Shown: positions 1,555 through 35,519 of the stretch, piece after piece
Numbering within the stretch: the stretch's first letter is position 1
Layout: the number at the start of each line of letters is the position of its first letter
Assembly (NCBI GenBank): GCA_002778785.1
Contig: PEZS01000001.1
Coordinates: 87,552 to 124,231, forward strand
Direction of reading: 5' to 3'
From: Bdellovibrionales bacterium CG10_big_fil_rev_8_21_14_0_10_45_34
Lineage (GTDB): Bacteria; Bdellovibrionota; Bdellovibrionia; Bdellovibrionales; 1-14-0-10-45-34
DNA: 36,680 nucleotides
Position numbers and translations under genes: made by a program
The notes under the pieces: generated by a model
What the model was told of the DNA's origin: nothing
The model's input: only the letters and a program-made list of their open reading frames with translations
The model's database searches: none

Positions 1555-3264
1555 CTAGGCTGCGTTAGCGTTAGCATGAGTCGACAGCATTTTCATGGCT
1601 TCAGCGACCTTCTGAGCCACTGCCTCTACGTCTTCCAGTTTAGATCTATTGGCCTTTAGGGCGTAGGTGATTCCTAGGAGCATACCAATCAAGTTTTCAC
1701 CATCCAGAATCGGTACGATACTCATATGATCTGGCATTTTTCCTTCGTTCCAATGGTCGAAAAACTGATGGGTGATCTTATTTTCGACTAAATAGCCATG
1801 ATACGGAGTTTGAGTTTCAAAGACGATCCTAAATGGGCTCGGTTCCTTGACGCTGACGAGCTTTTGAGCTGCTTTCGCGGGTTTCCATCTTTCGTCCCAT
1901 GCCCAAATTTGAAGTTGGCCATTGATGAGTTTTAAGAACATCGTGCGCGACAAAAACTCTCGCATGTTTGCTAGGGCATAGTAAGCTAGCTTTGCCTCCT
2001 CAGTGACGGTTTCAACGCCAGGTGGATCAAAGCTCTCATCAATTTTAATCTCTCCTAACGCACTACTTTCGATAACCTGAGATGGTGGTCTTGCAATAGC
2101 AGGGTTTAATGTTGCAACAACAGGCGCGTTTATCACAAATGATTTTGTCACAGTGACTTCATTGTCTGACATCGCATTTGTGATCCCTGTTTTCTCTGGC
2201 ACTTGTGGCTCTGCAGGTGGTGTCGCAGGCGTCGCTTCCAATTTAATCGAAGGCTTTGTTCGATCAGAGTCTACGCCATGAGGCTCTGCTGGCTGCGTGG
2301 CATGGGGCGCTTTCAGAGTAATTGAGGGCTTTGTGCTTTCAGAATCTACGCTCGACGGCTCTTTGGCTTTGGTGGATTTCAGTTTAACCTGTGTAACCTC
2401 TTCGTCGGTCAACATGTTGGGAACTTTTGTTTTGTCACCAATCTCGTTAGGGTAGGCCGCTATCTCGATAGGTCTGATTTCTGATTTCTTTATCGGAGGA
2501 GGCGTTCTCTCATCCTTAAACCCAGTGATGGTGCCAAAATCAATATCACCAAAGTCTTCAATTGGTCTTTCGACTATTCCGGTAGGGGAGTCAGCAAATT
2601 CCTCGTCCTCCTCTGTGCGCGAACTAGTTGTCAGCGGTGCAGACAAATCAAGACCTTGCGGTGTCTTGCTTTTTTCGACCTTTGCTTCGTCGATATCAAG
2701 GCCTTCAGGGGATTCGGATTTTGCAATCGCACTTTCATCAAAGTTAAGCCCCTCAGGAGTCGATTCTTTTGCAATCGCACTTTCATCAAAGTTAAGCCCC
2801 TCGGGAGTCGATTCTTTTGCAATCGCACTTTCATCTAAGCTTAAACCTTCTGGCGAAGTACTAACCACCGAGGTGCGTTCATGCGCTTTTTGTTCCCATT
2901 CAAATAGCTGGGTAGGTGGGGCGAGTACTAGTTGATAGGGTTGGGGTGGCTGCTCTAACTCAATCGGGGCAAGGCAAGCGACGAATAGAGTGCCGTCCCA
3001 TTCTGCAACCGGCAGAGACCCTTTGGGCCACAGTCCGGTATGCCTCAGCCAAAGCTCCTTCGGCGGGCTCTTTTGAAAAAATTCCTCGGTGAGGGTAGGC
3101 AGCAGATACTCCGACTGAGCCCACTTGAGGTACTCAGCAGAATCAATTTTCTTTTCCTTAAGACACCAATAAGTAAGTGAGTTTGCCGAACCTTTTTCAG
3201 AATTCCATGCTGAAATATGCTCTTCAACTCTAAAAAATTGGGCCCATTTAGCCACATCGTCCAT
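1555..3264 (-). CDS. Large protein with MshEN-like head, repeat linker and GAF-like tail
   Basis: A 569-residue protein with three visible parts. Residues about 1-110 resemble the N-terminal domain seen in type II secretion and pilus ATPases (MshEN-like: short helices, then a LPTLTEEFF motif and a P-rich strand region with EWDGTLFVACLAP). Residues about 135-430 are a low-complexity acidic and proline-rich linker with two kinds of tandem repeat. Residues about 430-565 look like a GAF-type sensory fold (MSIVPILDGENLIGMLLGI is typical of its last strands). No catalytic motif is visible. It could be a scaffold or a ligand sensor; both domain assignments are weak pattern matches. GTG at 3267 and ATG at 3264 are alternative starts; neither has a strong ribosome site. 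It is divergent from the cysteine desulfurase operon. Confidence 0.8.
   Translation of the reverse strand: MDDVAKWAQFFRVEEHISAWNSEKGSANSLTYWCLKEKKIDSAEYLKWAQSEYLLPTLTEEFFQKSPPKELWLRHTGLWPKGSLPVAEWDGTLFVACLAPIELEQPPQPYQLVLAPPTQLFEWEQKAHERTSVVSTSPEGLSLDESAIAKESTPEGLNFDESAIAKESTPEGLNFDESAIAKSESPEGLDIDEAKVEKSKTPQGLDLSAPLTTSSRTEEDEEFADSPTGIVERPIEDFGDIDFGTITGFKDERTPPPIKKSEIRPIEIAAYPNEIGDKTKVPNMLTDEEVTQVKLKSTKAKEPSSVDSESTKPSITLKAPHATQPAEPHGVDSDRTKPSIKLEATPATPPAEPQVPEKTGITNAMSDNEVTVTKSFVINAPVVATLNPAIARPPSQVIESSALGEIKIDESFDPPGVETVTEEAKLAYYALANMREFLSRTMFLKLINGQLQIWAWDERWKPAKAAQKLVSVKEPSPFRIVFETQTPYHGYLVENKITHQFFDHWNEGKMPDHMSIVPILDGENLIGMLLGITYALKANRSKLEDVEAVAQKVAEAMKMLSTHANANAA
2640..2866 (-). repeat. 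In-frame 48-bp tandem repeat inside the linker
   Basis: About five copies of a 16-residue unit of the form (S/T)PEGL(N/D/S)(F/I/L)DE(S/A)xIAKE. Two central copies are identical as protein and nearly so as DNA (around 2755-2850), which points to recent duplication. A second, longer period of about 25 residues, carrying VDSxxTKPSIxL, follows around 2205-2355. The copy number probably varies between strains. Confidence 0.9.
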
Positions 3265-3342
3265 CACTTTTTATTTCGGATGAAAATCCCTAAAACCGAA
3301 GCATATTGTGGGGTTTAACGTATTGTGCTAGATTCGGCCCCA

Positions 3343-4545
3343 ATGAACCATCCTACACACCCAATCTATCTCGATCACAACTCCACAACACCGCCGAACG
3401 ACCAGGTGGTAGCGAGACTAAAGGAGTGGTCTGGTTTGTGGGCAAATCCAAGTTCCGCACACAGCTTAGCAAGAGGGCCTAAATCCGCACTGACTTCTGT
3501 GCGCCGACAAATCGCTGGTTGGTTGAACGTTGCACCGATAGAAATTGTTTTTACTTCAGGAGGTAGCGAAGGAAACTCCGCTATAATCAAAGGAGTTTTT
3601 GAGTCTCTCAAACAAAAAGGTTCTCGCAATCGGTATGTGTTTTCAGAGGTCGAGCACCCTAGCATTGTTCGAAGCGCTGACTGGCTAAAAAAACAAGGAG
3701 CCGAAGTCGAGTGGATTCCGTGTAATCGAGATGGACTACTTGATTTGGAGTTCTACGAGAGTGTTCTAAAAAAAGAAGACGTGGCTCTCGTCTCCGTCAT
3801 GTTTGCAAACAATGAAACCGGCAGCATCTTTCCTATAAAAAAAATGGCAGCCAAGGCGCATAAACACGGCGCTTTGTTTCACACAGATGCTGTGCAAATT
3901 GCTGGCAAGGTTCGCTTTGATTTTGGCAATCTCAATGTCGATTACGCGACATTCGCAGGGCACAAGTTTTATGCGCTCAAAGGCGCTGGGTGGACATACA
4001 TTAAAAAAAATGTGCCGTATTCAAGTTTGATCATCGGTGGCGGGCAAGAGCGATCTCGCCGCGCAGGCACTGAAAATCTGCTAGCAATAGCTTCAATTGG
4101 CGAAATGATCACCCAGCTTGAAACAAACTTAGATAAACATATTTCACATATGTCCTCACTGCGAGATGAAATGGAAGAACTGGTTGAAAAGCTTTTACCA
4201 GAGGTAAAGATCACCGGTGCAGGTGCCCCTAGACTCTCAAATACGAGCAATTTTGTTATAGATGGCATGGATGGAGACACATTACTTATGCGACTCGATT
4301 TGCGGGGATATTGCGTGAGCACAGGGTCTGCATGCAGTTCGGGAGCTCAAGAGCCCTCAAGGGTACTAAGAGCAATGGGGCTAAGTCATAGAGAAGCCAA
4401 TGCATCTGTTCGCGTGAGCATAGGTTGGGGCACAACTCGAGAACAGATTCACAATTTTTGCCATGAACTGCAGGATGCCGTTCAAAGTATTCGTGAGAGT
4501 CAAACCCATGCGACGGGTTCGCGATCCGACTTGGTGCAGTTATGA
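3343..4545 (+). CDS. Cysteine desulfurase (IscS/NifS family)
   Basis: A 400-residue PLP enzyme that moves sulfur from cysteine onto an active-site cysteine as persulfide. The PLP-binding lysine is K208 in FAGHKFY, and the PLP-contacting SGGSEGN segment is at 72-78. The persulfide cysteine is C331 in [14 protein letters not shown], followed by the class I type loop. Length and spacing match IscS (E. coli K206 and C328). ATG at 3343 is preferred to an upstream GTG at 3325 because homologs start shortly before the YLDHNSTT strand. The stop overlaps the mnmA start by four bases (ATGA). This pairing suggests that the enzyme supplies sulfur to MnmA for 2-thiouridine, and perhaps also to Fe-S assembly. 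No iscU or scaffold gene follows. Confidence 0.95.
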
Positions 4546-5651
4546 AAGAAGTTATGGCAGCAAAAAAGCCTCGAGTATTAGTAGCAATGAGTGGTGGAGT
4601 AGATAGCTCCGTCGCCGCCGCTTTATTGATCGAGCAAGGTTACGATGTCGTCGGCATCACCATGCAAGTTTGGGATTACTCGAAAGATGCCTGTAGCCTT
4701 GAAGAGGGTAAAGGAACCTGCTGCTCTAGTGAAGACGTCGAAGACGCCCGCGCTGTTGCAGATCGCCTAGGATTTCCTTTTTATGTTATGAACTGTGAAG
4801 CCAAGTTTAAGGCTTTTGTGATTGATCCATTTGTAGACAGCTATTTGAATGGAAAGACGCCTGTACCATGCGTAAACTGCAATACATTTTTGAAGTTCGA
4901 TCACCTTTTTCAAAAGATGAAAGAGCTTGATTGTGATTACTTGGCTACTGGGCACTACGCTCGGATCGTCGAAAAGAATGGGAAGTACTCCATTGTAACA
5001 AGTGAAGATCGCTGGAAGGATCAAACTTATTTTCTTTTTACGATGTCCCAAGAGCGGATCTCAAAACTGATGTTTCCGATTGGGCACCTCACGAAACCGC
5101 GAGTTCGCGAAATTGCAGAGCAGCATCAACTTTTAAACTCTCAGAAGAAAGACTCAACCGGCATTTGTTTTATTAGTTCAAAGGGGCATGGTGCATTTAT
5201 AGAACAACACGTCCCAGCGGATTTGCTCAAGCCCGGCTACATCAGGCGGCTGTCGAATCAAGAGGTGTTAGGAGAGCATAAAGGAATTCACCAATTCACG
5301 CTTGGCCAGAGACGCGGCTTAGGGCTCGATCACCACGAAACTCTTTTTGTCGTAAAGATCGATCCAGCCACAAACACAGTTTGGGTGGGCGAAGAAAAGG
5401 ATCTTATGCGGGGCAGTCTCGTGATCGAGAAAACTAATTGGCTGGGTAGTGTAGAAGACGGTGAAAAACTAAGTGTAAAAATTAGGTATCTGCATACAGG
5501 CTCTTTAGCCACCGTGCGAAAGTTGAACGTTAGCAGTGAAGAAAAGTATGTTGTCGACTTTGATGAACCGCAAAGGGCAATTACGCCGGGGCAAGCCGCT
5601 GTATTCTATCGAGGAGACGAGCTGCTTGGGGGCGGCTGGATAGTAGAGTAA
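4542..5651 (+). CDS. mnmA: tRNA-specific 2-thiouridylase MnmA
   Basis: A 369-residue enzyme that adenylates and then thiolates U34 of tRNAs for Lys, Glu and Gln. The PP-loop SGGVDSS is at 17-23. The catalytic cysteine in the CN motif is C113 ([11 protein letters not shown]), and the second, persulfide-accepting cysteine is C209 in STGICFI. GHYAR at 137-141 and the C-terminal beta-barrel domains are present, and the length is normal. It starts at the ATGA overlap with the desulfurase; a second in-frame ATG twelve bases later is an alternative. Overlap with its sulfur donor gene implies translational coupling. Confidence 0.97.
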
Positions 5652-5725
5652 ATGTTGAATAAACTATTGAATAAACTGACGAGAATATTGCTAAGCAATA
5701 TAAAGTCATCACCGGCGAGAGAGTT

Positions 5726-7033
5726 GTGAGTTTGATTAGCTTTCACACACATGGTTGTAAGGTAAATACCTACGACACCGGCCTATTAGAAAACCAACTA
5801 AATGATGTAGCGACTTCGGACGCGCACGTTCATGTTATTAATTCGTGTGCGGTGACAGCGCAGGCGACTTTGGATGTTGTCAAGCAAGCAAGGCGTCTTA
5901 AAAGAAAGCAGCCAGATTCGAAAGTGGTAGTGACAGGTTGTTCTGCACAGGTCGATCATCAAATTCTTTTGGATGCACCAGAGATCGACATAGTAGTTGC
6001 GAACTCCCACAAACCTCACCTGAGAGAAATTTTGCAAGATCATCTATCGGCTAAAGAGAGTTCTCGCTCCTACATAGATGATATATTTAAAAATGAAACG
6101 TTGGGCGAGGGCGGCGGTCTTGAAAGTGCTCATACAAGGGCCTATTTAAAGATACAAGATGGATGCAATAGTTTTTGTACGTTTTGTGTAATCCCTTTTG
6201 CGAGAGGACGAAGTCGATCTCTAAGTGTGAAAGAGCTGTGCGAAAGAGCGAATTCTCTTTACCAGCAGGGCGCCCGTGAAATTGTACTTACAGGTGTTCA
6301 CGTTGGCGACTACGAAAATACAAATGGCGAAAGTAAAGTTGTTTTAGAAGATTTAGTGTCTGAGATGTTAAAAAGGACTGAGGTGCCTCGCTACCGAATA
6401 TCCAGTTTGGAGCCCATAGAGCTGACAGATCGTCTTTTAGATCTTTATTCTGACGAGAGATTATGTCCGCACTTTCATATGAGTATTCAAAGTGCATCTA
6501 CCAAGGTTCTTCACGAGATGAAGAGAAAATATACAGCCGAAGATGTAAAGAGCGCGTTGACGCGAATACGTCAGAAGCTTCCGAGTGCCTACATAGGAAT
6601 GGACGTCATCGCGGGCTTCCCCGGGGAGACGGATGAGGAGTTTTTAGAGACGTGTGAGAATCTTCGATCGACTCCCTGGACGCGGATCCATGTGTTCCCG
6701 TACAGCGAAAGATCTCGCACTAAGGCGGCTCAGAGAGAGGATCAGATTCCAGTGGCAACACGAATGAGTCGCGCCGAAGCATTACGAGAGTTAAGTCATC
6801 AGAGAGCATTTGAAGAAGCTGAAAGGCAGATTGGACTAGTAAAGCGGGCCCTAGTACTGAGAAATAACAAAGAGCGCGGCAGAGCGTTAACGAGGGATTA
6901 CTGGAATTTGGAAATTGATCAGAACGACCTTAGCGTGAACGAGGAGTTAGAGTTTAGGATCGTCGCAATCAGCGACCGTTCCGTTCACAATGGGCCGATT
7001 TTAAAAGCAGAAGTGGTCTGTGCGAGCTGTTAG
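5726..7033 (+). CDS. mtaB: tRNA methylthiotransferase, MtaB type
   Basis: A 435-residue radical SAM enzyme of the MiaB/RimO/MtaB group, which adds a methylthio group to t6A37 of tRNA. The N-terminal cluster cysteines are C11, C41 and C72 (HGCKVN, NSCAV, TGCSAQ). The radical SAM triad is C147, C151 and C154 (CNSFCTFC). A TRAM-like RNA-binding tail spans about 365-435. The HTHGCKVNTYD start and the C-terminal region fit MtaB better than MiaB. The start is GTG at 5726, behind a purine-rich GGCGAGAGAG site. It lies between mnmA and rnc, so this operon carries two sulfur modifications of the tRNA anticodon loop. Confidence 0.92.
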   Translation: MSLISFHTHGCKVNTYDTGLLENQLNDVATSDAHVHVINSCAVTAQATLDVVKQARRLKRKQPDSKVVVTGCSAQVDHQILLDAPEIDIVVANSHKPHLREILQDHLSAKESSRSYIDDIFKNETLGEGGGLESAHTRAYLKIQDGCNSFCTFCVIPFARGRSRSLSVKELCERANSLYQQGAREIVLTGVHVGDYENTNGESKVVLEDLVSEMLKRTEVPRYRISSLEPIELTDRLLDLYSDERLCPHFHMSIQSASTKVLHEMKRKYTAEDVKSALTRIRQKLPSAYIGMDVIAGFPGETDEEFLETCENLRSTPWTRIHVFPYSERSRTKAAQREDQIPVATRMSRAEALRELSHQRAFEEAERQIGLVKRALVLRNNKERGRALTRDYWNLEIDQNDLSVNEELEFRIVAISDRSVHNGPILKAEVVCASC

Positions 7034-26693: not shown

Positions 26694-27646
26694 ACAAGTG
26701 CTCCTCCGCAAGAACTCCCTGCGCCCGCGGTACAAGCGTAGCAATGATCTGCGACAGTAATTCGGTTGTTCTCGAAGTTATCAAATGAATGGATATCCCA
26801 GATGCCGGTTCTCCCACTTCCAAGGGGTAGCTCGAGCATCTGGTTGAAGTCGCAATCGAAGAGTTCGCCGTTCCAGCTTACTGAGATTAGATTTTTACAC
26901 ATGACCCCAGTTAAAGCCTTGGAGTTAAAGCTGTTCGCGAGAAGATCCATGTACTGCTCAAGTCTTTTGGACTTTTCTAGATCAACTAGAAATCGCTTAA
27001 TAGGCATGTTGGTGATTGTGAAAAGATGATTGAATTCAATTCCAAATAATTCTCTGAGTTCTTTTTTGTAATCGATCTCAAGCTTCTGTTGAGATGGAGG
27101 TAGAGAAGGGCCTGTTGGGTTGTAGACGAGGTCTAGATTCAAGTTTGAATCTAATTTGCCGTAACCGAGATTATTTAGAATCCTAAGCGCTTCGATGCTC
27201 TTATTAAACACGCCAGCTCCTCTCTGTCGTTCGACATTCTCTTTTGAGTAGCACGGAAGCGAGGCGACGATATGCACATGGTTTTCTTTTAGGAACTGAG
27301 CTGTGTCTTGTTGATCTTTCTCGAATAAAATTGTTAGATTGCACCGATCGATCACTTTCTTATTTAAATTTCTTGCGGCAATCACAAGTTTTCGAAAATA
27401 TGGGTTTAATTCAGGCGCTCCACCGGTGATGTCAACCGTTTCAATTGTTTTTGAAGCGGCCAACAACTCAATGACTCGATCTACAGTTTTTTCATCCATG
27501 TTTTCGGTTCGAAGGGGGCTCGATTCGACATGGCAGTGATGGCACGCCTGATTACAGCGACGTCCAATGTTCACTTGCAAAATTTGAACGCTTGATCGCT
27601 TCAGCGTTAGGCCGTGTTTTTCTAAGGTAGAGGTGAATGACTGCAT
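26690..27646 (-). CDS. arsS: Arsenosugar biosynthesis radical SAM protein ArsS
   Basis: A 318-residue radical SAM enzyme that transfers the 5'-deoxyadenosyl group of SAM to dimethylarsenite, the committing step to arsenosugars. The cluster motif is C31-xxx-C35-xx-C38 (CNQACHHC), followed by VDITGGAPELNPYF. The Cys-rich C-terminal domain ends with HCYACTAGAGSSCGGAL; in some relatives a cysteine of this region is selenocysteine, but here every position is coded as Cys. ATG 27646 overlaps the transporter stop (TAATG) with GAGGAG eight to nine bases upstream. Longer frames to 27793 are ruled out by this overlap. Confidence 0.94.
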   Translation of the reverse strand: MQSFTSTLEKHGLTLKRSSVQILQVNIGRRCNQACHHCHVESSPLRTENMDEKTVDRVIELLAASKTIETVDITGGAPELNPYFRKLVIAARNLNKKVIDRCNLTILFEKDQQDTAQFLKENHVHIVASLPCYSKENVERQRGAGVFNKSIEALRILNNLGYGKLDSNLNLDLVYNPTGPSLPPSQQKLEIDYKKELRELFGIEFNHLFTITNMPIKRFLVDLEKSKRLEQYMDLLANSFNSKALTGVMCKNLISVSWNGELFDCDFNQMLELPLGSGRTGIWDIHSFDNFENNRITVADHCYACTAGAGSSCGGALV

Positions 27647-28772
27647 TAGAGAACTCCTCGTAAAAAGTAGAATCCTATAAATCCGAGGGCGCCTGCAACC
27701 GGCAAAGTGATCACCCACGCTAATAGAATTCTTACGATTGCACCCCAGTGGGCTTGCTTCGTAACAGCTCCAATTCCAAAAAGGGCTCCACACGACACGT
27801 GGGTCGTAGAGACGGGCAAGCCAAAGTTAGATGCGCCGATGACGATAGCACTTGTCACCAAATTGGCCGTAAAACCCTGGCCGTCATTCATTGACGTGAT
27901 TTGATGTGACATCGTTTCAGCGATTCGGCGAGCAAAGAAGATTCCGCCGGCCGCCATCGCGAGCGATACGACCACGATCGAGGGCAAGGGGGTCATAAAG
28001 CTTCCAACGATTAAAATGGCCGCAATCTTTGGAGTGTCATTCATGCCTCTTGCAAAGCCTACAAGACCGGCGCTCAGGAAGTGGGCTGTATCTAGCAACG
28101 ATTTCGCGCTGACATCCCAAATTTTTCCAACATACCGCTCTTCGCAGCTAACGGTCGTACCGATCGATATTGTTGGAGTCATTGAGATCTGTACCATTGC
28201 TGCAGACGAACCCGGTAGAGTGCCTGGTGGCGCCGCCATGAGAACCTCATTTCCAACACATAAACAGCTCTCTCTCATTATGCCCATTCTTTTCCGCGAA
28301 TAACTAAGAATGGGATAAAGGACAACCGTGCCCGCAATCGCAATGAAGGGGCTCAAAATGAGGGGAAGTACGAAAGCGGAATTCAATTGCGCAAAATTAA
28401 CGCCTTCTGAAGATGCCAGAAGGCCGGTCCCCACGAGAGCTCCGGTTAAAGCATGTGTAGTTGAAATCGGAAACCCTAGCCGAGTTGCCAGTATCACAGT
28501 CGAAGCGGCAGCAAATGCTACCGACAAAGAAAAGGAAGTTAGCTGAGCAACTTGATCGGGCACGAGGCCCTTTCCAGAAAAATTAACCATAAGCTTCTGC
28601 GCGAAAAAAAAGCCGCTAAAGAACCAAGAAAAGTGGTCAAAGTGGCCCAGGTCAGTGCGATTTTATATGATGCCGTTCGACTTCCAAAAAGGGTCGCCAC
28701 CCCTTTAAAATTATCATTGGCGCCATTGGAAACTGCCAGAAAGACTCCGACAGCCAAGATCATAAATATCAT
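27646..28772 (-). pseudogene. PiT-family phosphate/arsenate-type transporter, frameshifted in a T8 run
   Basis: The first frame (from ATG 28772 with AAGGAG upstream) gives the start of a PiT transporter, including the signature NGANDNFKGVATLFGS. It leaves the correct frame at a run of eight T (28604-28611) and stops at 28539. The remainder continues in the -1 frame to 27646 and contains GFPISTTHALTGALVG and PVSTTHVSCGALFGIG, the duplicated PiT signature. The joined product would be about 375 residues, a normal length. PiT proteins move phosphate, and arsenate as an analogue, with a cation. The run may be a sequencing error, a true mutation or a slippage site. It heads the arsenosugar operon. 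Confidence 0.85.
28604..28611 (-). repeat. T8 homopolymer at the frameshift point
   Basis: Read on the coding strand the zero frame is GCT-TTT-TTT-TCG, so the heptamer T-TTT-TTT has the form of a -1 slippery site. Nine T would restore the frame directly. It marks the exact place where the two parts of the transporter separate. Confidence 0.8.
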
Positions 28773-28916: not shown

Positions 28917-29396
28917 ATGAGCAATATCAAAGACGACATTTTCGAGAAAATTAAGAGTGAAAGAGGAGGTCTAGCTTCGATACATTTAGCCTTTTCGGAG
29001 TTTACTCAGGGCGTCGCTGCGCACTACGATTTCTATAAGTCCATAATGCTAAACGAAGGTCTCCCTCTTGGAAGATCAGACCGAGAATTTCTGGCCGTTG
29101 AAACCAGTCGATTGAATCAGTGTCCCTATTGTGTCGCACATCACGCGGAGGCTCTAAAGCACAGCGGGTCCGAACCTGCAGGGGGAAAACTCGAGATTCT
29201 AAAAGCACTGGCGCACACAATGACTTTGGAGCCATGGAAATCATCCCCTCTTTTTACCCAGTTTATCGCTCAGGGATTTTCACAGGCCCAATGGCAGCAT
29301 GCCGTAATGGTCGTATCCTACTTTAACTTCGTAAATCGGTGCGCCCATGCAATGAATCTAGAAATAGAACCGGACTTCAAGGACACCTGTCGCTGA
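28917..29396 (+). CDS. AhpD-like peroxidase-related protein
   Basis: A 159-residue member of the CMD/AhpD group. The motif is C69-x-x-C72 followed by H75 and H76 (CPYCVAHHAEAL), typical of alkylhydroperoxidase-like reductases. The rest is helical. ATG 28917 has AAAGGGATGG some eight bases upstream. It is divergent from the arsenosugar operon across about 144 bases, and other arsenosugar clusters are known to include a small peroxidase-like AhpD homolog, so it may be that accessory protein. Substrate unknown. Confidence 0.88.
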   Translation: MSNIKDDIFEKIKSERGGLASIHLAFSEFTQGVAAHYDFYKSIMLNEGLPLGRSDREFLAVETSRLNQCPYCVAHHAEALKHSGSEPAGGKLEILKALAHTMTLEPWKSSPLFTQFIAQGFSQAQWQHAVMVVSYFNFVNRCAHAMNLEIEPDFKDTCR

Positions 29397-29665: not shown

Positions 29666-31804
29666 CTAATTCCGCCTCCAGCTATGAAACCGAGAAAGCC
29701 ATTTCAACGCGATTTGCGGAGCATTTTGTTTCTTCCAGACACCTGCTACGTATTTGTTAGCTTCTGCAAACGTGGGATAAATGTGAATGGTTCCCAGAAT
29801 TTTGTTGAGTCCCAATCCGTGCTTCATTGCGGTAACAAATTCTGAAATTATGTCGCCCGCGTGGTCGCCCACAATTGTCACGCCCAATATTTTGTCTGAT
29901 CCGAGCTTTGTGAGAACTCGAACAAAACCATGGGCTTCGCTTTCTGCAATAGCGCGATCAAGGTCATCAATGCCATAGTGAGAGATCTCATATGATATGC
30001 CTTTTTCTTTGGCTTCGATTTCATTGAGGCCAACTCGAGCCACCTCGGGATCTGTAAAGGTACACCAAGGGATGACTCGATAATCGACTTTATAAGTTTT
30101 AAACGGGCTAAATAATGCGTTCACTGCCACGTACCACGCCTGGTGGGCCGCCGTATGAGTGAATTGATAAGGCCCGGTGACATCGCCGCAAACAAAAATA
30201 TTGGGATAATTCGTCGTTCGCATGTAATCGTCAGCTACGACAGTTCCGCGATTGGAGATTTCAATATTCAGTTTTTCGAGACCGAACCCGGTGACATTGG
30301 CTTTTCGGCCAAGCGCGACCAGTATTTCGTCAAACGGAATTTCTACCTCGCGTCCTTCGAATTCACATACTAATATTTTTTTTGCAGAATCGACCCGCAG
30401 AGCCTTGTGACCTGTACGAACCGAAATATTCTCTTTGCTAAATTTATCTGACACATGTTGAGAAACCATTTCGTCTTCACGAGACAAAATGCGGGAAGAC
30501 ATTTCGACTAAAGTCACCTTTGACCCGAAGCGCGCAAAACTCTGCGCAAGTTCGCAACCGATGGGACCTCCTCCCAGAACGATTAAACGTTCCGGAAGCT
30601 CGCGAATATTCCAGATATTATCACTGGTCAAAAACGAAATCTCCGAAAGACCTGGGATAGAAGGAACAAGTGGCGAGGCTCCGGTTGCGACAACGATATT
30701 TTTGGTGGTGAGTACTTTACCATTCACTTCAACTTCATATGGCGATTTTATCTTTGCTGCTCCGATAATGCAGTCGACACCAAGGCCCGCGTAGCGCTCC
30801 ACAGAATCGTGGGGCTCGATATCTTTTATGACATTCTGAACTCGCTCCATCACTTTGCTAAAATCAAAAGTGGGGTTATGCCTGTCTAAGCCAAATTCCT
30901 CTGCACGCTTAAAATAACTTAAAATTTTTGCCGACCGAATCAGCGCCTTGCTGGGAACACAGCCGGTATTGAGGCAGTCGCCCCCCATCTTATGCTTTTC
31001 AATGAGAGCCACCTTAGCTTTTACGGCTGCGGCAATATAAGATGAAACAAGTCCCGCTGAGCCCCCACCGATCACGATCATGTTATAGTCAAATTTGCTT
31101 GGGCGTTTAAAATTTTTGAGATGTTTTCTAGACTTGATAAATCCGATCACGGATTTTGAGACAAATGGAAGCACGCCTATTAGAGCAAACGAAATCAGAA
31201 GCCCTGGAGAGAGAATCCCTCGTAGAGAGGTGATTTCAGCAAGCTCGGTGCCGGCATTAACGTAAACAGCAGTGCCAGCAAGCATACCTAATTGGCTCAC
31301 AAAAAAGTACGTCGCTGTTTTTATGGAAGTGAGTCCCATCACCAGATTAATTAAGAAAAATGGAAATACGGGAACTAAGCGCAATGTGAAGAGATAGAAT
31401 GCTCCCTCTTTTTTAACACCGGCGTTAATACTTTGAAGCCGATCCCCGAAGCGCCTTTCAACAAAATCCTTAAAAAGAAAGCGTGACGCAAGAAAGGCAA
31501 GTGTCGCACCGACAGTGCTAGCAAAGGAGACAATGACGGTGCCTATCCAAAAGCCAAACAGCATACCTCCAGCTAAAGTTAAAACGGTGGCGCCGGGAAG
31601 CGAAAGACCCGTAGCCAACACATAAATAAGAAAATAAATTCCAATTGTTTGCCAGGGATTTGCTTGAAAATAAAGTTCAAGCAAATCCTTCTTTGACTTC
31701 AAGGTTTCGATTGTCAGCAGTTGATCAAGATTTTGCGATTTCGCGAAAAGGAGCAGGCCCAGTGCCACAGCAATAAACCCAACCTTTAGAACAACTTTTT
31801 TCAT
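29666..31804 (-). CDS. TVP38/TMEM64 membrane domain fused to flavin disulfide reductase
   Basis: A 712-residue fusion. Residues 1 to about 225 form a TVP38/DedA-like membrane domain (LPGATVLTLAGGMLFG and RLVPVFPFFLINLVMG are its two re-entrant-loop motifs). From about 238 comes a pyridine-nucleotide disulfide oxidoreductase: FAD site GGGSAG at 246-251, redox pair C277/C282 in GGDCLNTGCVPSK, NAD(P)H site VLGGGPIGCELAQ, second FAD segment VFVCGDVTG, and dimer motif HIYPTFAEA. Database names often call this mercuric reductase, but the C-terminal vicinal cysteines of MerA are missing (it ends SWRRN) and there is no HMA domain. ATG 31804 has AAAGGA upstream. The natural disulfide substrate, perhaps in the membrane, is unknown. 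Confidence 0.93.
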   Translation of the reverse strand: MKKVVLKVGFIAVALGLLLFAKSQNLDQLLTIETLKSKKDLLELYFQANPWQTIGIYFLIYVLATGLSLPGATVLTLAGGMLFGFWIGTVIVSFASTVGATLAFLASRFLFKDFVERRFGDRLQSINAGVKKEGAFYLFTLRLVPVFPFFLINLVMGLTSIKTATYFFVSQLGMLAGTAVYVNAGTELAEITSLRGILSPGLLISFALIGVLPFVSKSVIGFIKSRKHLKNFKRPSKFDYNMIVIGGGSAGLVSSYIAAAVKAKVALIEKHKMGGDCLNTGCVPSKALIRSAKILSYFKRAEEFGLDRHNPTFDFSKVMERVQNVIKDIEPHDSVERYAGLGVDCIIGAAKIKSPYEVEVNGKVLTTKNIVVATGASPLVPSIPGLSEISFLTSDNIWNIRELPERLIVLGGGPIGCELAQSFARFGSKVTLVEMSSRILSREDEMVSQHVSDKFSKENISVRTGHKALRVDSAKKILVCEFEGREVEIPFDEILVALGRKANVTGFGLEKLNIEISNRGTVVADDYMRTTNYPNIFVCGDVTGPYQFTHTAAHQAWYVAVNALFSPFKTYKVDYRVIPWCTFTDPEVARVGLNEIEAKEKGISYEISHYGIDDLDRAIAESEAHGFVRVLTKLGSDKILGVTIVGDHAGDIISEFVTAMKHGLGLNKILGTIHIYPTFAEANKYVAGVWKKQNAPQIALKWLSRFHSWRRN

Positions 31805-31832
31805 TTTAAAGCATCCTTTCGCAGCAATTTTT

Positions 31833-31848
31833 CTTACACATCTGTAAG
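31833..31848. promoter_or_regulatory. Inverted repeat CTTACA-N4-TGTAAG
   Basis: A perfect 6+6 repeat with spacer CATC, 29 bases upstream of the reductase-fusion start. The TTACA/TGTAA ends also occur in the large palindrome about 30 bases away, so the same regulator may bind both. It would lie in the 5' leader of the minus-strand transcript. Confidence 0.5.
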
Positions 31849-31861
31849 TGGCGCTCAGGCC

Positions 31862-31897
31862 CATTTTATTACAGTTAAATTTAACTGTAATAAAATG
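31862..31897. promoter_or_regulatory. 36-bp perfect palindrome forming two overlapping divergent promoters
   Basis: The left arm CATTTTATTACAGTTAAA (31862-31879) is followed by its exact complement. On the plus strand ATTACA (31868-31873) and TAAAAT (31891-31896) lie 17 bases apart, a good -35/-10 pair. By symmetry the same pair exists on the minus strand. It sits almost midway between the start codons of the reductase fusion (58 bases) and the DUF547 gene (51 bases). One bound dimer would shut both promoters. Confidence 0.75.
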
Positions 31898-31947
31898 CCT
31901 CCCCCAACCACTTACTTGCGTAGGCATGTCAGTTCAAAGGAGTGTAT

Positions 31948-32856
31948 ATGCATCTAAACCACAAACAAATAGCTTCAGTCCTTGGGTTCCTGCTCTGCTT
32001 CGCCGCGGCGGGATCAGATGTCTTTGCGAGCGGAACTGAGGAGCCTGTTTATGTCCCATCTGCGCGCTCCATTAACCATGACCATGCGGCCTGGACCAAG
32101 GTCCTTAGCAGGTATGTTACCGTCGAGGGCGGGACTAGTGTGGTCGACTACAAAAGACTCAAAGCCAACCAGCGAGAGTTGGATTCTTACATTGAAACAC
32201 TTCAGTCTGTAGCCGGCACGGAGTTTAGGGAATTTTCTGGTGACCAGAGACTGGCATTTCTCATTAACGCGTATAATGCCTTTACCCTTCGACTTATCCT
32301 AAACAATTATCCCGATAAGATGACGAAGACAGAGACCAAAATAGTTGATGGGAAAGATCAAACCATCTCGATCCGCTCAATACGAAATATTCCCGTTTCG
32401 CGAGGATTTTCGAATTTGGGAGCATCGCCATGGAAAGACAAATTCTTTAAGCTATTTTCCGACGAGCACAGTCTGGATGAGATTGAGCACGAGATGATTC
32501 GCGCTAAGTTCAATGAGCCCAGAATACATTTTGCGGTAGTGTGTGCCTCAATAGGTTGCCCGATGTTAAGACCTGAGGCCTATGTGGCTGATCGCCTGAA
32601 AGATCAGCTAGAGGATGCAACGATCTCCTTTTTAAAACTAAGACCAGGGCATCGCTTTGACCCCCAAACGAAAACACTATACCTATCTTCTATTTTCGAC
32701 TGGTACGGAAAGGATTTCGAAAAGACCGGAGGCACCGTCAAAGACTTTGTTGCACAAAGAATGGCTTCTAATCCTGACGAAGCAAATCTGATCAAAAGTA
32801 GCGACACTAAAATCAAGTTTCTCGACTACGATTGGTCACTCAACGAAAAAAAATGA
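31948..32856 (+). CDS. DUF547-containing secreted protein
   Basis: A 302-residue exported protein. A signal peptide ends near DVFAS (about residue 32). The DUF547 domain follows with its hallmarks LAFLINAYNAFTLRLI, RIHFAVVCASIGCPMLRPEA and SSIFDWYGKDFE. The domain has a cysteine-peptidase-like fold in some relatives, but no activity is established. ATG 31948 has AAAGGAG five bases upstream, better than GTG 31942. DUF547 genes frequently neighbour TVP38 and flavin-reductase genes, and here they share one bidirectional promoter. Confidence 0.92.
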   Translation: MHLNHKQIASVLGFLLCFAAAGSDVFASGTEEPVYVPSARSINHDHAAWTKVLSRYVTVEGGTSVVDYKRLKANQRELDSYIETLQSVAGTEFREFSGDQRLAFLINAYNAFTLRLILNNYPDKMTKTETKIVDGKDQTISIRSIRNIPVSRGFSNLGASPWKDKFFKLFSDEHSLDEIEHEMIRAKFNEPRIHFAVVCASIGCPMLRPEAYVADRLKDQLEDATISFLKLRPGHRFDPQTKTLYLSSIFDWYGKDFEKTGGTVKDFVAQRMASNPDEANLIKSSDTKIKFLDYDWSLNEKK

Positions 32857-32938
32857 ATCACGCTGTAAGAAAATTGCAAAAATCTCCACTTATTGATGTG
32901 CGGATTGTATCCCACAAAACTTCAATGAGGAGGATTTT

Positions 32939-33355
32939 ATGAAGCGTCTTTTAGCAGTATTAACGTTGGTGCTCGGAGTTGGCGCACATGCGGATGGATT
33001 TAAAATTGGCCTGGGCGGATATTGCCCAGTTGGATTTGTAAAAGCCGGAAAGAGCGTATTTGGAGATCCAAAATTTGCATCTGAATATGAAGGCACGACG
33101 TTTTACAATTCAAGTGCCGATGCTAAAAAAATGTTCGACAAGGACCCAGCTAGCTTTGTTGGTGCAATCAAGTACAAAGGATTCTGCGCGACGGGCCTAG
33201 CCATGAGCAAAAAGCTAGAAAGTGATCCGTCGATTTTTTCAAGAATAGATGGAAGCATTTATTTTTTTAGCAGCAAAGAAGCTAAGACAATGTTCGACAA
33301 AGACCCGAAGAAGTTCATTGGTCAAGCGAATGCGGAATGGGCGAAATTACAATAA
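32939..33355 (+). CDS. Secreted protein with two YHS-like repeats
   Basis: A 138-residue exported protein with signal MKRLLAVLTLVLGVGAHADG. Two similar units follow: GGYCPVGFVKAGK…FYNSSADAKKMFDKDPASFV and KGFCATGLAMSKK…YFFSSKEAKTMFDKDPKKFI. Each has one cysteine, an aromatic strand pair and an (A)KxMFDKDPxxF helix, the layout of YHS domains found in metal-handling proteins. A metal ligand role for the two cysteines is an inference. ATG 32939 has GAGGAGG seven bases upstream. It stands alone, 82 bases after the DUF547 gene. Confidence 0.8.
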   Translation: MKRLLAVLTLVLGVGAHADGFKIGLGGYCPVGFVKAGKSVFGDPKFASEYEGTTFYNSSADAKKMFDKDPASFVGAIKYKGFCATGLAMSKKLESDPSIFSRIDGSIYFFSSKEAKTMFDKDPKKFIGQANAEWAKLQ

Positions 33356-33532: not shown

Positions 33533-33564
33533 TTGAGTCTCTAGTATGGTATAGGCTGTACAAT
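33533..33564 (+). promoter_or_regulatory. MerR-type promoter with long spacer
   Basis: A -35 TTGAGT (33533-33538) and a -10 TACAAT (33559-33564) are separated by 20 bases, longer than the usual 17 and in the range that MerR-family proteins correct by DNA distortion. An imperfect dyad (CTA … TAG) lies in the spacer. merR starts 17 bases after the -10, so one promoter should drive merR and the genes behind it. Confidence 0.65.
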
Positions 33565-33580
33565 TTGGTAAGGAGCAGAG

Positions 33581-34015
33581 ATGGAAAAGAATAAGGAGAC
33601 AATGACTATAGGGGCACTATCCAAAATATCTGGTATTGGGATACAAACAATTCGATATTATGAGCGCAAAGGTCTGCTAAAACCCGTAACTCGAAAAAGT
33701 TCTGGGTACAGAGTTTTCAATTGGGACTCCTACAAATCGCTTCGATTTCTGAAACATGCTCAAGAGTTGGGATTTTCACTTTCCGAAATCAAAGACCTAT
33801 TACGACTTAGAGCCAATAAAAAGTCCAGCTGTGTGGATGTTCAAAGTAGAGCGAACAAACATCTCAAAGGTGTCGAGGAAAAAATTGCGCAATTAGGCAT
33901 GATACGAGAGGTACTCTCCGAGCTTATCCAAAAATGTCGATCCCGAGAGGTAGATGATGCCTGTCCGATACTAGATTGCTTTGAAAAAATGGAGGACTCT
34001 CATGGGCCTCGATAA
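33581..34015 (+). CDS. merR: Mercury-responsive regulator MerR
   Basis: A 144-residue MerR-family activator. A winged helix-turn-helix opens the protein (GALSKISGIGIQTIRYYERK), followed by a long dimerisation helix. The Hg(II) ligands match by spacing: C84, C119 and C128 (intervals 35 and 9), exactly those of the Tn501 protein (82, 117, 126). A fourth cysteine C133 lies in the tail. ATG 33581 has AAGGAG five bases upstream. It is the first gene of the operon it presumably controls, unlike the divergent arrangement of classical Gram-negative mer operons. Confidence 0.93.
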   Translation: MEKNKETMTIGALSKISGIGIQTIRYYERKGLLKPVTRKSSGYRVFNWDSYKSLRFLKHAQELGFSLSEIKDLLRLRANKKSSCVDVQSRANKHLKGVEEKIAQLGMIREVLSELIQKCRSREVDDACPILDCFEKMEDSHGPR

Positions 34016-34358
34016 AATTGAGAATAAATCTGGCTGGCTTGTTGGCGGTGGAGTTCTGGCTTCAATCGTCGCCTCTATCTGTTGCATCGGTCCACTAGTG
34101 CTTACGGTATTGGGAATATCTGGAGCTGCGGCGCTTTCAAAATTTGAGACTCTTCGAATCCCAATGATTGTGTTTGTTTTGATTTCGTTTGGAATCGCTG
34201 GTTTTTCTCTTTATCAGAAAAGAAATAGTTGCGAGCAAGGTTCGATATGTGCTGATCCCAGCAAATTCAGAAGAATGGTCGCTTTTTATTGGATAGGATT
34301 GGTGATTGCGATTTTGGGAATTTCGTCCCCGCAATGGGTTGTTTTTCTTTTTTCATAG
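34002..34358 (+). CDS. merT: Mercuric ion transporter MerT
   Basis: A 118-residue inner-membrane protein with three hydrophobic segments. The first holds the vicinal pair C27-C28 (ASICCIGPLVLTVLGISG) and the cytoplasmic loop holds C77 and C83 (NSCEQGSICADP), the two Hg(II)-passing pairs of MerT. ATG 34002 has GGAGGA five bases upstream and overlaps the merR end by 14 bases; the longer frame to 33981 is unlikely. Length matches MerT (about 116). Confidence 0.93.
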   Translation: MGLDKIENKSGWLVGGGVLASIVASICCIGPLVLTVLGISGAAALSKFETLRIPMIVFVLISFGIAGFSLYQKRNSCEQGSICADPSKFRRMVAFYWIGLVIAILGISSPQWVVFLFS

Positions 34359-34367
34359 GGAGCTTAG

Positions 34368-34658
34368 ATGAGATTTTTATTTTTAACGACATTGATCTTG
34401 ACGGTAATCGGAAGAACATTTGCGGCTAGCGCGCATGAGGCATGCTTTACGGTTCAAGGTATGACATGTGCCACATGTGGCCTCACCCTTAAGTCTGCGG
34501 TCAAAAAACTAAAAGGCATTCAAGAGGTAAGACCATCCGTCGAAAAGGGAGATGCAATCATTCAGTTTAACGGACAAGAGGTCAACGCTCGGGCGATCCA
34601 GAAAGCTATTGATGACGTCGGTTATAAAGCTACGCCCAAAGAATGTAAGAAAATCTAA
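34368..34658 (+). CDS. merP: Periplasmic mercury-binding protein MerP
   Basis: A 96-residue exported heavy-metal-associated (HMA) protein. The signal peptide ends near AASA (residue 19-22). The metal site is GMTCATC with C34 and C37, within a normal ferredoxin-like fold ending at KAIDDVGYKA. An additional cysteine, C26, lies before the domain and another near the C-terminus. ATG 34368 is preceded by GGGAGC. It would hand Hg(II) to MerT, the gene just upstream. Confidence 0.92.
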   Translation: MRFLFLTTLILTVIGRTFAASAHEACFTVQGMTCATCGLTLKSAVKKLKGIQEVRPSVEKGDAIIQFNGQEVNARAIQKAIDDVGYKATPKECKKI

Positions 34659-34677
34659 GTATAGAAGGTGAATCCAA

Positions 34678-35049
34678 ATGGACTACAAAAAAATTGATCC
34701 CGCACTCGAACTTATGAAGGATTTTGGAAAAATCACCGGCGGAATACCCGGCCTGATTGATCAAATGAGACAGAAATCTATTTTTTCCGAGAGCAATGTA
34801 CCACAGAAATTCAAGATACTGACGGCAGTCGTCTGGGCAATTTCCGCGCGATGCGAGCCATGCTTCAAATATTATATTCACCATGCGATCAAAACTGGCG
34901 CGACAGAAGCGGAGCTCGGTGAGTTTTTAGCCATCGCCTCTACTATGGGTGGATGTGTTGGTGAAATGTGGGCACTTAAGGCGTACAAGGCGTTCAAGGA
35001 ATACAGTGGAGACTCTTCCTCTAACGAGGCCCCTTCCTGCTGCGATTAG
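34678..35049 (+). CDS. AhpD-like protein at the end of the mer operon
   Basis: A 123-residue CMD-family protein. The CxxC motif is C59/C62 with H68 and H69 (CEPCFKYYIHHA); TMGGCVGEMWALKA carries another cysteine, and the protein ends in SCCD with a vicinal cysteine pair. It follows merP by 19 bases in the same direction with GAAGGTGAA upstream. The conserved thiols and the operon position suggest that it handles Hg(II) or the oxidative damage it causes, perhaps as a thiol relay; no activity is established. Confidence 0.88.
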   Translation: MDYKKIDPALELMKDFGKITGGIPGLIDQMRQKSIFSESNVPQKFKILTAVVWAISARCEPCFKYYIHHAIKTGATEAELGEFLAIASTMGGCVGEMWALKAYKAFKEYSGDSSSNEAPSCCD

Positions 35050-35273: not shown

Positions 35274-35519
35274 ATGAAAGATCGATATTGGGACCACGTC
35301 TATCTGAAAAAGAAAGAAAATGAAGTAAGTTGGTTTCAGGAGAATCCTAAAACGTCCATTGATTTAATCCAAGAGTTTGGCCTTCGTTCTTCAGACAAAA
35401 TTATTGACATTGATGGCGGCGATTCTCGTCTCGTAGACAATCTGTTCACTCCAAAGGGCGTTACCCAAAGCTTCGTTTACTGTGGCTTTCTCGAGTTGTT
35501 CGTGCCGATGAAGAGTTAA
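35274..35519 (+). pseudogene. Truncated class I SAM methyltransferase
   Basis: An 81-residue frame. The first 57 residues match the start of small methyltransferases (RYWDHVYLKKKENEVSWFQE, then DKIIDIDGGDSRLVDNL, the SAM-binding glycine loop with the first Gly changed to Asp). After that the sequence departs and stops; intact relatives are about 200 residues. The break is near 35440. ATG 35274 has GGGGGG upstream. The opposite strand beyond the break contains a short open frame (MPLTLHRHEQLEKATVNEAL) that I do not recognise. Confidence 0.75.

Follow-up and report, generated by a model that had tools for sequence, protein, structure and literature searches.

The mer operon and its last gene

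The window analysed here, a stretch of 36,680 nucleotides, contains a compact mer operon, in which merR, merT, merP and a CMD/AhpD-like gene (hereafter CMD) form a single plus-strand unit behind a mer-type promoter (Table 1). The best start of merT is an ATG inside the 3' end of merR, and gaps of 9 and 19 bases separate merT from merP and merP from CMD, respectively. An earlier note had identified merR, merT and merP by the spacing of their cysteines; these cysteines are conserved, MerT (74.6 bits, cut-off 32.9) and MerP (46.6 bits, cut-off 24.8) exceed the Pfam cut-offs, and all genes lie where the note had placed them. MerR scored 120.7 bits, below the NCBIfam cut-off of 150.85. For all three proteins the nearest NCBIfam families are mercury families, yet the stricter equivalog cut-offs are missed, indicative of a divergent mer set. 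The secretion signal of MerP was judged by eye only. As the note had also claimed, no merA follows merT and merP: the last gene encodes a CMD protein (39.0 bits, Pfam cut-off 23), with a CxxC motif and a terminal CC.

Table 1 Features of the mer operon and its surroundings in the window
Feature	Position	Strand	Basis and remarks
mer-type promoter/operator	33533-33564	+	pattern scan; TTGAGT, 20 bp spacer, TACAAT
merR	33581-34015	+	metal-responsive regulator; TIGR02051 best NCBIfam match; Cys84, Cys119, Cys128
merT	34002-34358	+	three-helix Hg(II) transporter; PF02411; Cys27-Cys28 in helix 1, Cys77/Cys83 in cytoplasmic loop
merP	34368-34658	+	predicted secreted HMA-domain metal-binding protein; PF00403; GMTCATC, CxxC is Cys34/Cys37
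CMD, AhpD-like, in the place of merA	34678-35049	+	123 residues; PF02627; Cys59-x-x-Cys62, Cys93, Cys121-Cys122, Tyr66
Methyltransferase remnant	35274-35519		class I, internally deleted, 81 residues
TVP38 flavoprotein fusion	29666-31927	-	best TIGR02053 match in the genome
TVP38 flavoprotein/DUF547 pair	29666-33355
Second CMD/AhpD-like gene	28917-29396		peroxidase-related type, other subfamily
Putative phosphate-permease-type membrane protein	27646-28772	-	two overlapping frames

The operator dyad found by the pattern scan is degenerate (CTA-N8-TAG) and lies within the promoter spacer. A plain sigma-70 promoter scan (16-18 bp spacers) and a terminator scan of the operon gave nothing above chance, the former because a MerR-type promoter requires a 19-20 bp spacer. 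In relatives (L021, L022 and L024) the same box and the 20 bp spacing accompany a near-perfect dyad, CTGTAG(T)..(A)CTACAG (CTGTAGTnnnnCTACAG). The classical mer operator CCGTAC..GTACGG (CCGTACnnnnGTACGG) is present in other CMD operons (L025, L057; Vogesella, Cupriavidus) and, by pattern scan, also ahead of the Rhodanobacter ones. The mer-CMD operon of L021 has integrase-like transposase pieces on both flanks (2226-3581 and 5502-5855), suggesting mobility. Next to the window operon lies a methyltransferase remnant, intact relatives of which are found near three other merA-less mer operons (L116 6746-7378, L078 4555-5271 and L086 1779-2414). Mercury methylation by this neighbour was considered and rejected, as the window copy is internally deleted and Hg(II) is, on chemical grounds, an unlikely substrate for SAM-dependent methylation.

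The genome lacks a true MerA

A true merA was searched for throughout the host genome (3.06 Mb, 16 contigs, 100% complete), and no protein exceeded the TIGR02053 cut-off. The best match and nearest MerA relative, with 391.8 bits against a cut-off of 454.45, is the TVP38 fusion, which is encoded on the strand opposite to the mer operon and outside it. The fusion retains the CxxxxC redox motif GGDCLNTGCVPSK and ends in ...LSRFHSWRRN; it was correctly described earlier as devoid of two hallmarks of MerA, the HMA domain (by Pfam) and the C-terminal Cys pair (by its sequence end). The other two full-length flavoprotein matches in the genome also lack a terminal Cys-Cys. A distant merA was rejected as a candidate, the whole-genome search having returned just lipoamide-dehydrogenase-type matches and the TVP38 fusion.

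In three genomes (the window, L114 and L115), 3-12 kb separate the pair of TVP38 flavoprotein and DUF547 genes from the mer-CMD operon; YHS and metal-related genes lie in between, an arrangement that resembles a metal-handling island. The second CMD/AhpD-like gene of the window is kept beside the TVP38 gene in L114. The two overlapping frames listed in Table 1 look like pieces of one membrane protein, separated by a frameshift near 28540-28590.

Conserved cysteines and a lost relay in CMD

The AF2 model of CMD shows with confidence (pLDDT 90.7) a helical AhpD-like fold, residues 111-123 forming a disordered tail, and its closest solved fold is that of lpg0406 (5dik; Z 15.7, rmsd 1.7 over 108 residues). 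Across 31 orthologues, no variation is seen at Cys59, Cys62, Cys93 and Cys121, and Cys122 is present in all but one, three sequences having CxC; the tail around Cys121/Cys122 is otherwise unconserved. In M. tuberculosis AhpD the relay residues are Glu118 and His137 (PMC3141380), which correspond to positions 12 before the first and 4 after the second cysteine of CxxC. Every one of the 31 mer CMDs has the Glu replaced (by Ile, Ala and others) and the His changed to Tyr, whereas all six non-mer relatives retain both relay residues and lack Cys93 and the Cys-Cys tail. The loss of the relay, together with the extra conserved cysteines, speaks against a peroxidase and argues that the mer CMDs would bind metal through thiolates.

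The nearest curated relatives of CMD are an arsenite methyltransferase/AhpD-domain selenoprotein family (NF041537) and an arsenosugar-associated protein (TIGR04169); all 31 members match NF041537 weakly and fall far below the cut-offs of both. Gamma-carboxymuconolactone decarboxylase shares PF02627 with CMD, whose operon context is mer, and the gamma-CMD enzymes are devoid of CxxC (PMC3141380). Apparent domain fusions of CMD in two genomes (G526 and G579) were dismissed as long frames with over-extended start sites, and a phage origin was likewise discarded, as no CMD match was found among phages. Broken copies of CMD (G500:C1:589309-589629, L052 and L059), one with an in-frame stop in G500 and one a split gene in Legionella anisa, indicate ongoing loss of the gene as well.

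CMD recurs behind merT and merP

The earlier note had suggested looking for merT-merP-CMD operons elsewhere; such operons turned up in several phyla, and most of the genomes concerned have no MerA. Among 84,980 species genomes searched, 36 CMD loci were identified; where the flanking DNA was long enough, CMD adjoins merT, merP and/or merR in the majority of loci. The taxa with mer-adjacent CMD include Bdellovibrionota, Alpha-, Beta- and Gammaproteobacteria and one deltaproteobacterial bin, and the orthologues beside mer genes are about 50-79% identical to the CMD of the window. The set of merR, merT, merP and CMD is also carried by Cupriavidus metallidurans pMOL30 and by a Methylocapsa plasmid. 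Among the genomes searched for MerA, a true one was found under just 9 of 38 handles, some of which are duplicated.

In a first sample, comprising 197 genomes related to that of the window, strong CMD matches occur in 7 genomes, in each of them directly beside merT, and merT itself occurs in 16 (17 loci over cut-off), with a true MerA in 6. If relatedness is ignored, CMD would be confined by chance to genomes of the merT set, as it is in all 7 cases, with a probability of about 6e-9, so the adjacency of CMD and merT is far beyond chance. The cargo at the 17 merT loci is MerA at 5, CMD at 7 (one of which also carries a CopZ-type gene) and a CopZ-type protein alone at 4; the single locus with no visible cargo is a MerTP fusion. 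One genome (G164) carries both a MerA cassette and a CMD cassette.

The second sample consisted of 147 Rhodanobacteraceae genomes with 41 merT loci over cut-off, and the slot after merT/merP was filled in every locus, by MerA (21), CMD (7) or a GDCCVxC protein (13). Of the 21 MerA loci, the 18 that were inspected contain neither CMD nor GDCCVxC. MerA is absent from all 7 CMD-merT genomes and present in 18 of the 28 other merT genomes (about p = 0.003, relatedness ignored).

The cassette is patchy, as CMD was detected in just 2 of 250 genomes sampled from a Betaproteobacterial order. Solitary orthologues with no merT nearby (L029, L030, L039, L050 and L051) suggest that CMD may have a wider role, and its co-occurrence with a true MerA at four to five loci (L040, L043, L047, L048) indicates that it is not always a MerA replacement. 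At L040 (2984-5350), the MerA encoded beside merR-CMD-merT has an extra C-terminal region of ~325 residues with no Pfam match. Bufferin-like Cys-rich secreted peptides and DUF692-like genes lie near the mer-CMD operon at L024 (3010-3551) and L114 (5214-6829).

Unrelated cargos share a terminal Cys-Cys

All 13 Rhodanobacteraceae merT-merP loci without merA or CMD (L082-L094) encode a GDCCVxC protein with a Cys-Cys end. Such a protein is also encoded in the merT-merP operon of Xanthomonas citri pXAC219 (L119), which has neither merA nor CMD, and 348 plasmid records contain relatives. At five loci of Bdellovibrionota (L062, L064, L065, L066 and L072), merT-merP is followed by a [2Fe-2S]/zinc protein of the CopZ N-terminal type (NF047645). 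In the examined loci MerA ends in LSCCAG or LSCCAS, CMD in SCC plus a few residues and GDCCVxC in SCCG or similar, and the CopZ-type cargos begin with MSCC, MGCC or MSTCC. The terminal CC is found in 30 of 31 CMDs, in 13 of 13 GDCCVxC proteins and in all MerA checked, against a background of 4 out of 353 other ORFs at the loci with CC in the last ten residues. The C-terminal Cys pair of MerA is one of the signatures essential for its activity (PMC3466566). That unrelated cargos have this end in common suggests that the terminal Cys-Cys would be the site that receives Hg(II) from MerT, with the body behind it interchangeable. MerT, CopZ-type, AhpD-domain, GDCCVxC-type (NF041374) and Cys-Cys-COOH proteins are all listed as selenoproteins in the selenoproteome literature, where several of them are implicated in metal resistance (PMC13188914), a listing that fits the present findings.

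Sensor, transporter and operator look alike across cargos

All 53 aligned MerR have the three cysteines, whichever cargo gene follows, and both MerT pairs are kept, with one or two exceptions among 54, at loci of every kind (CMD, MerA, GDCCVxC and CopZ-type); the MerP CxxC aligned in 48 of 50 MerP. The operator, too, is similar for the different cargos. In a quick tree of MerT, a short protein, the Bdellovibrionota CMD and MerA cassettes share one clade (SH-aLRT 99) and the Rhodanobacteraceae CMD and GDCCVxC cassettes another (96). The cargos are interleaved, and the CMD label must have changed at least 5 times if only well-supported branches are considered. Taken together, the cargo-independent cysteines and the interleaved tree suggest that the substrate of the transport unit stayed the same through exchanges of the last gene.

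These observations bear on whether the operon handles mercury at all, as opposed to another soft metal or metalloid (Cu(I), Ag(I), Au, As/Sb) behind a merely mer-like appearance. Such a substrate would be in keeping with the missed equivalog cut-offs of MerR, MerT and MerP, with the arsenic-linked curated relatives of CMD and with the location of several CMD loci within copper or arsenic islands. However, all three Hg-binding cysteines of MerR and both MerT pairs are kept, classical mer operators precede the CMD operons of Vogesella, Cupriavidus and Rhodanobacter, the same MerT clades carry MerA, and CMD adjoins a true MerA at some loci, which makes another metal unlikely. The cysteines of MerR, MerT and MerP, together with the operator, point to Hg(II) as the probable substrate.

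A candidate acceptor in the place of MerA

The earlier note had reasoned that Hg(II) import would do harm if no reduction followed, so that the imported mercury has to be taken care of by CMD or by a merA located elsewhere. This expectation is supported: no distant merA was found, and CMD, MerA and GDCCVxC replace one another in a single slot. With no distant merA, recurrence in distant lineages and exchange of cargos in one slot, CMD is left as the cargo protein, and we consider it likely that CMD is the Hg(II) acceptor that replaces MerA. That CMD then sequesters the ion, rather than passing it to some other fate, is at best marginally favoured. On balance, the operon as a whole may be somewhat better explained than not as a mercury-responsive import cassette in which merA has been replaced by a non-reductase acceptor, so that mercury is imported and stored.

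The C-terminal Cys pair of MerA receives Hg(II) and serves as a model for the tail of CMD. In the import-and-storage reading, MerR would sense Hg(II) and switch on the operon through the mer-type operator, and MerP and MerT would carry the ion into the cytoplasm. CMD would receive it from the cytoplasmic cysteines of MerT, most likely via the flexible Cys121-Cys122 tail, and would then store it on the helical core, at Cys59, Cys62, Cys93 and perhaps Tyr66. We infer the direct hand-over from MerT to CMD, its stoichiometry, the fate of the stored mercury and the precedence of storage over redox chemistry. A stoichiometric sink saturates, so deliberate mercury import would be difficult to explain unless the metal later leaves the cell by some route.

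The main alternative is a split mercuric reductase, in which CMD provides the Cys-Cys entry site and passes Hg(II) to a separate flavoprotein, here the TVP38 fusion, for reduction to Hg(0). AhpD proteins are known to act together with flavoprotein disulfide reductases, as in M. tuberculosis, and the TVP38 fusion, the closest MerA relative, keeps CxxxxC and has no CC tail. The fusion and the DUF547 gene stand near the CMD operon in three Bdellovibrionota genomes (the window, G050 and G132), and a glutathione-reductase-like flavoprotein follows CMD or merT at three loci (L042, L043 and L048). On the other hand, the other Bdellovibrionota with the cassette (G010, G015, G109) and, for example, Vogesella (G201) offer just lipoamide-dehydrogenase-level matches, the fusion lies on the opposite strand outside the operon, and TVP38/DUF547 pairs are also found in other contexts; we regard a split reductase as fairly unlikely. 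No less doubtful is a broader version, according to which the mer cassette has a plug-in cargo slot: an exposed terminal Cys-Cys would be all that a protein needs to be loaded with Hg(II) by MerT, the AhpD-fold cargo being the mercury-loading half of a split reductase completed by a cellular flavoprotein; if true, two proteins would do what MerA does in one chain.

CMD could instead repair oxidative damage inflicted by the imported mercury, as a thiol peroxidase or thiol-disulfide reductase, which would accord with its AhpD-like fold and CxxC and with the protection against oxidants afforded by the related RclX (PMC7950407). This is improbable, given that the AhpD relay kept in the non-mer relatives is replaced throughout the mer CMDs, that the extra conserved cysteines fit metal binding better, and that the imported mercury itself would be left unaddressed. 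A degenerate mer operon that has lost merA, with CMD as an unrelated neighbour, is hardly credible: some CMDs are broken (G500, Legionella anisa) and merP of pMOL30 is reported to be partly deleted (PMC2864759), but the conservation of CMD already contradicts it, as the merT-merP-CMD order recurs in distant lineages with conserved cysteines and the Rhodanobacteraceae cargo slot is never empty.

Implications and comparison with known systems

The component families are known, whereas CMD or GDCCVxC as cargo of merA-less mer operons is undescribed in the literature searched, which left most subscription journals outside its coverage: within it, no text links a CMD/AhpD protein to merT/merP, and no mer paper mentions GDCCVxC. 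A mercury-resistance survey (PMC3466566) tabulates only merA-proximal genes, and surveys anchored on merA leave merA-less import operons uncounted. Should the CMD, GDCCVxC and CopZ-type cargos indeed accept Hg(II), accumulation of mercury rather than volatilisation may be common among bacteria, which would bear on mercury cycling, on the use of merT/merP as markers of mercury reduction and on bioremediation. The same swap in related bacteria points to a second, barely noticed mode of mercury handling, and the recurring terminal Cys-Cys offers a simple, testable rule for ion hand-over from MerT.

The operon resembles the merRTPA operon of the Tn501/Tn21 type in the functional cysteines of MerR, MerT and MerP, in the MerR-type promoter with its 19-20 bp spacer and in having a cargo gene last, with a vicinal Cys pair at the end of its product. 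It differs in that this cargo is a 123-residue AhpD-fold protein without flavin or NADPH domains, with no mercuric reductase, and in that merR is co-directional with merT. With the AhpD-like/CMD family PF02627 (lpg0406 5dik, RclX 7y4r, M. tuberculosis AhpD), CMD shares the helical fold and the CxxC at a helix start, and it departs from the family in the replaced relay Glu/His, the extra Cys93, the Cys-Cys tail and the mer context. Compared with its nearest curated relatives, NF041537 and TIGR04169, it is a stand-alone protein in a mercury rather than an arsenic context.

The GDCCVxC proteins (NF041374) stand in the slot that CMD fills after merT-merP, for the most part in MerA-less genomes, and have the Cys-Cys end, but they are small, zinc-ribbon-like and unrelated to CMD, with no AhpD fold. 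The CopZ-type metallochaperones (NF047645, PF18423) likewise come after merT-merP in Bdellovibrionota without MerA and carry a terminal, in their case N-terminal, Cys-Cys, but consist of zinc and [2Fe-2S] domains of unrelated fold. A working precedent for mercury import and storage is the engineered E. coli that expresses MerT/MerP and a metallothionein (PMC6215804); it also couples Hg(II) import to cytoplasmic sequestration without reduction, although that system is man-made and its sink is metallothionein, the role for which CMD is the candidate here.
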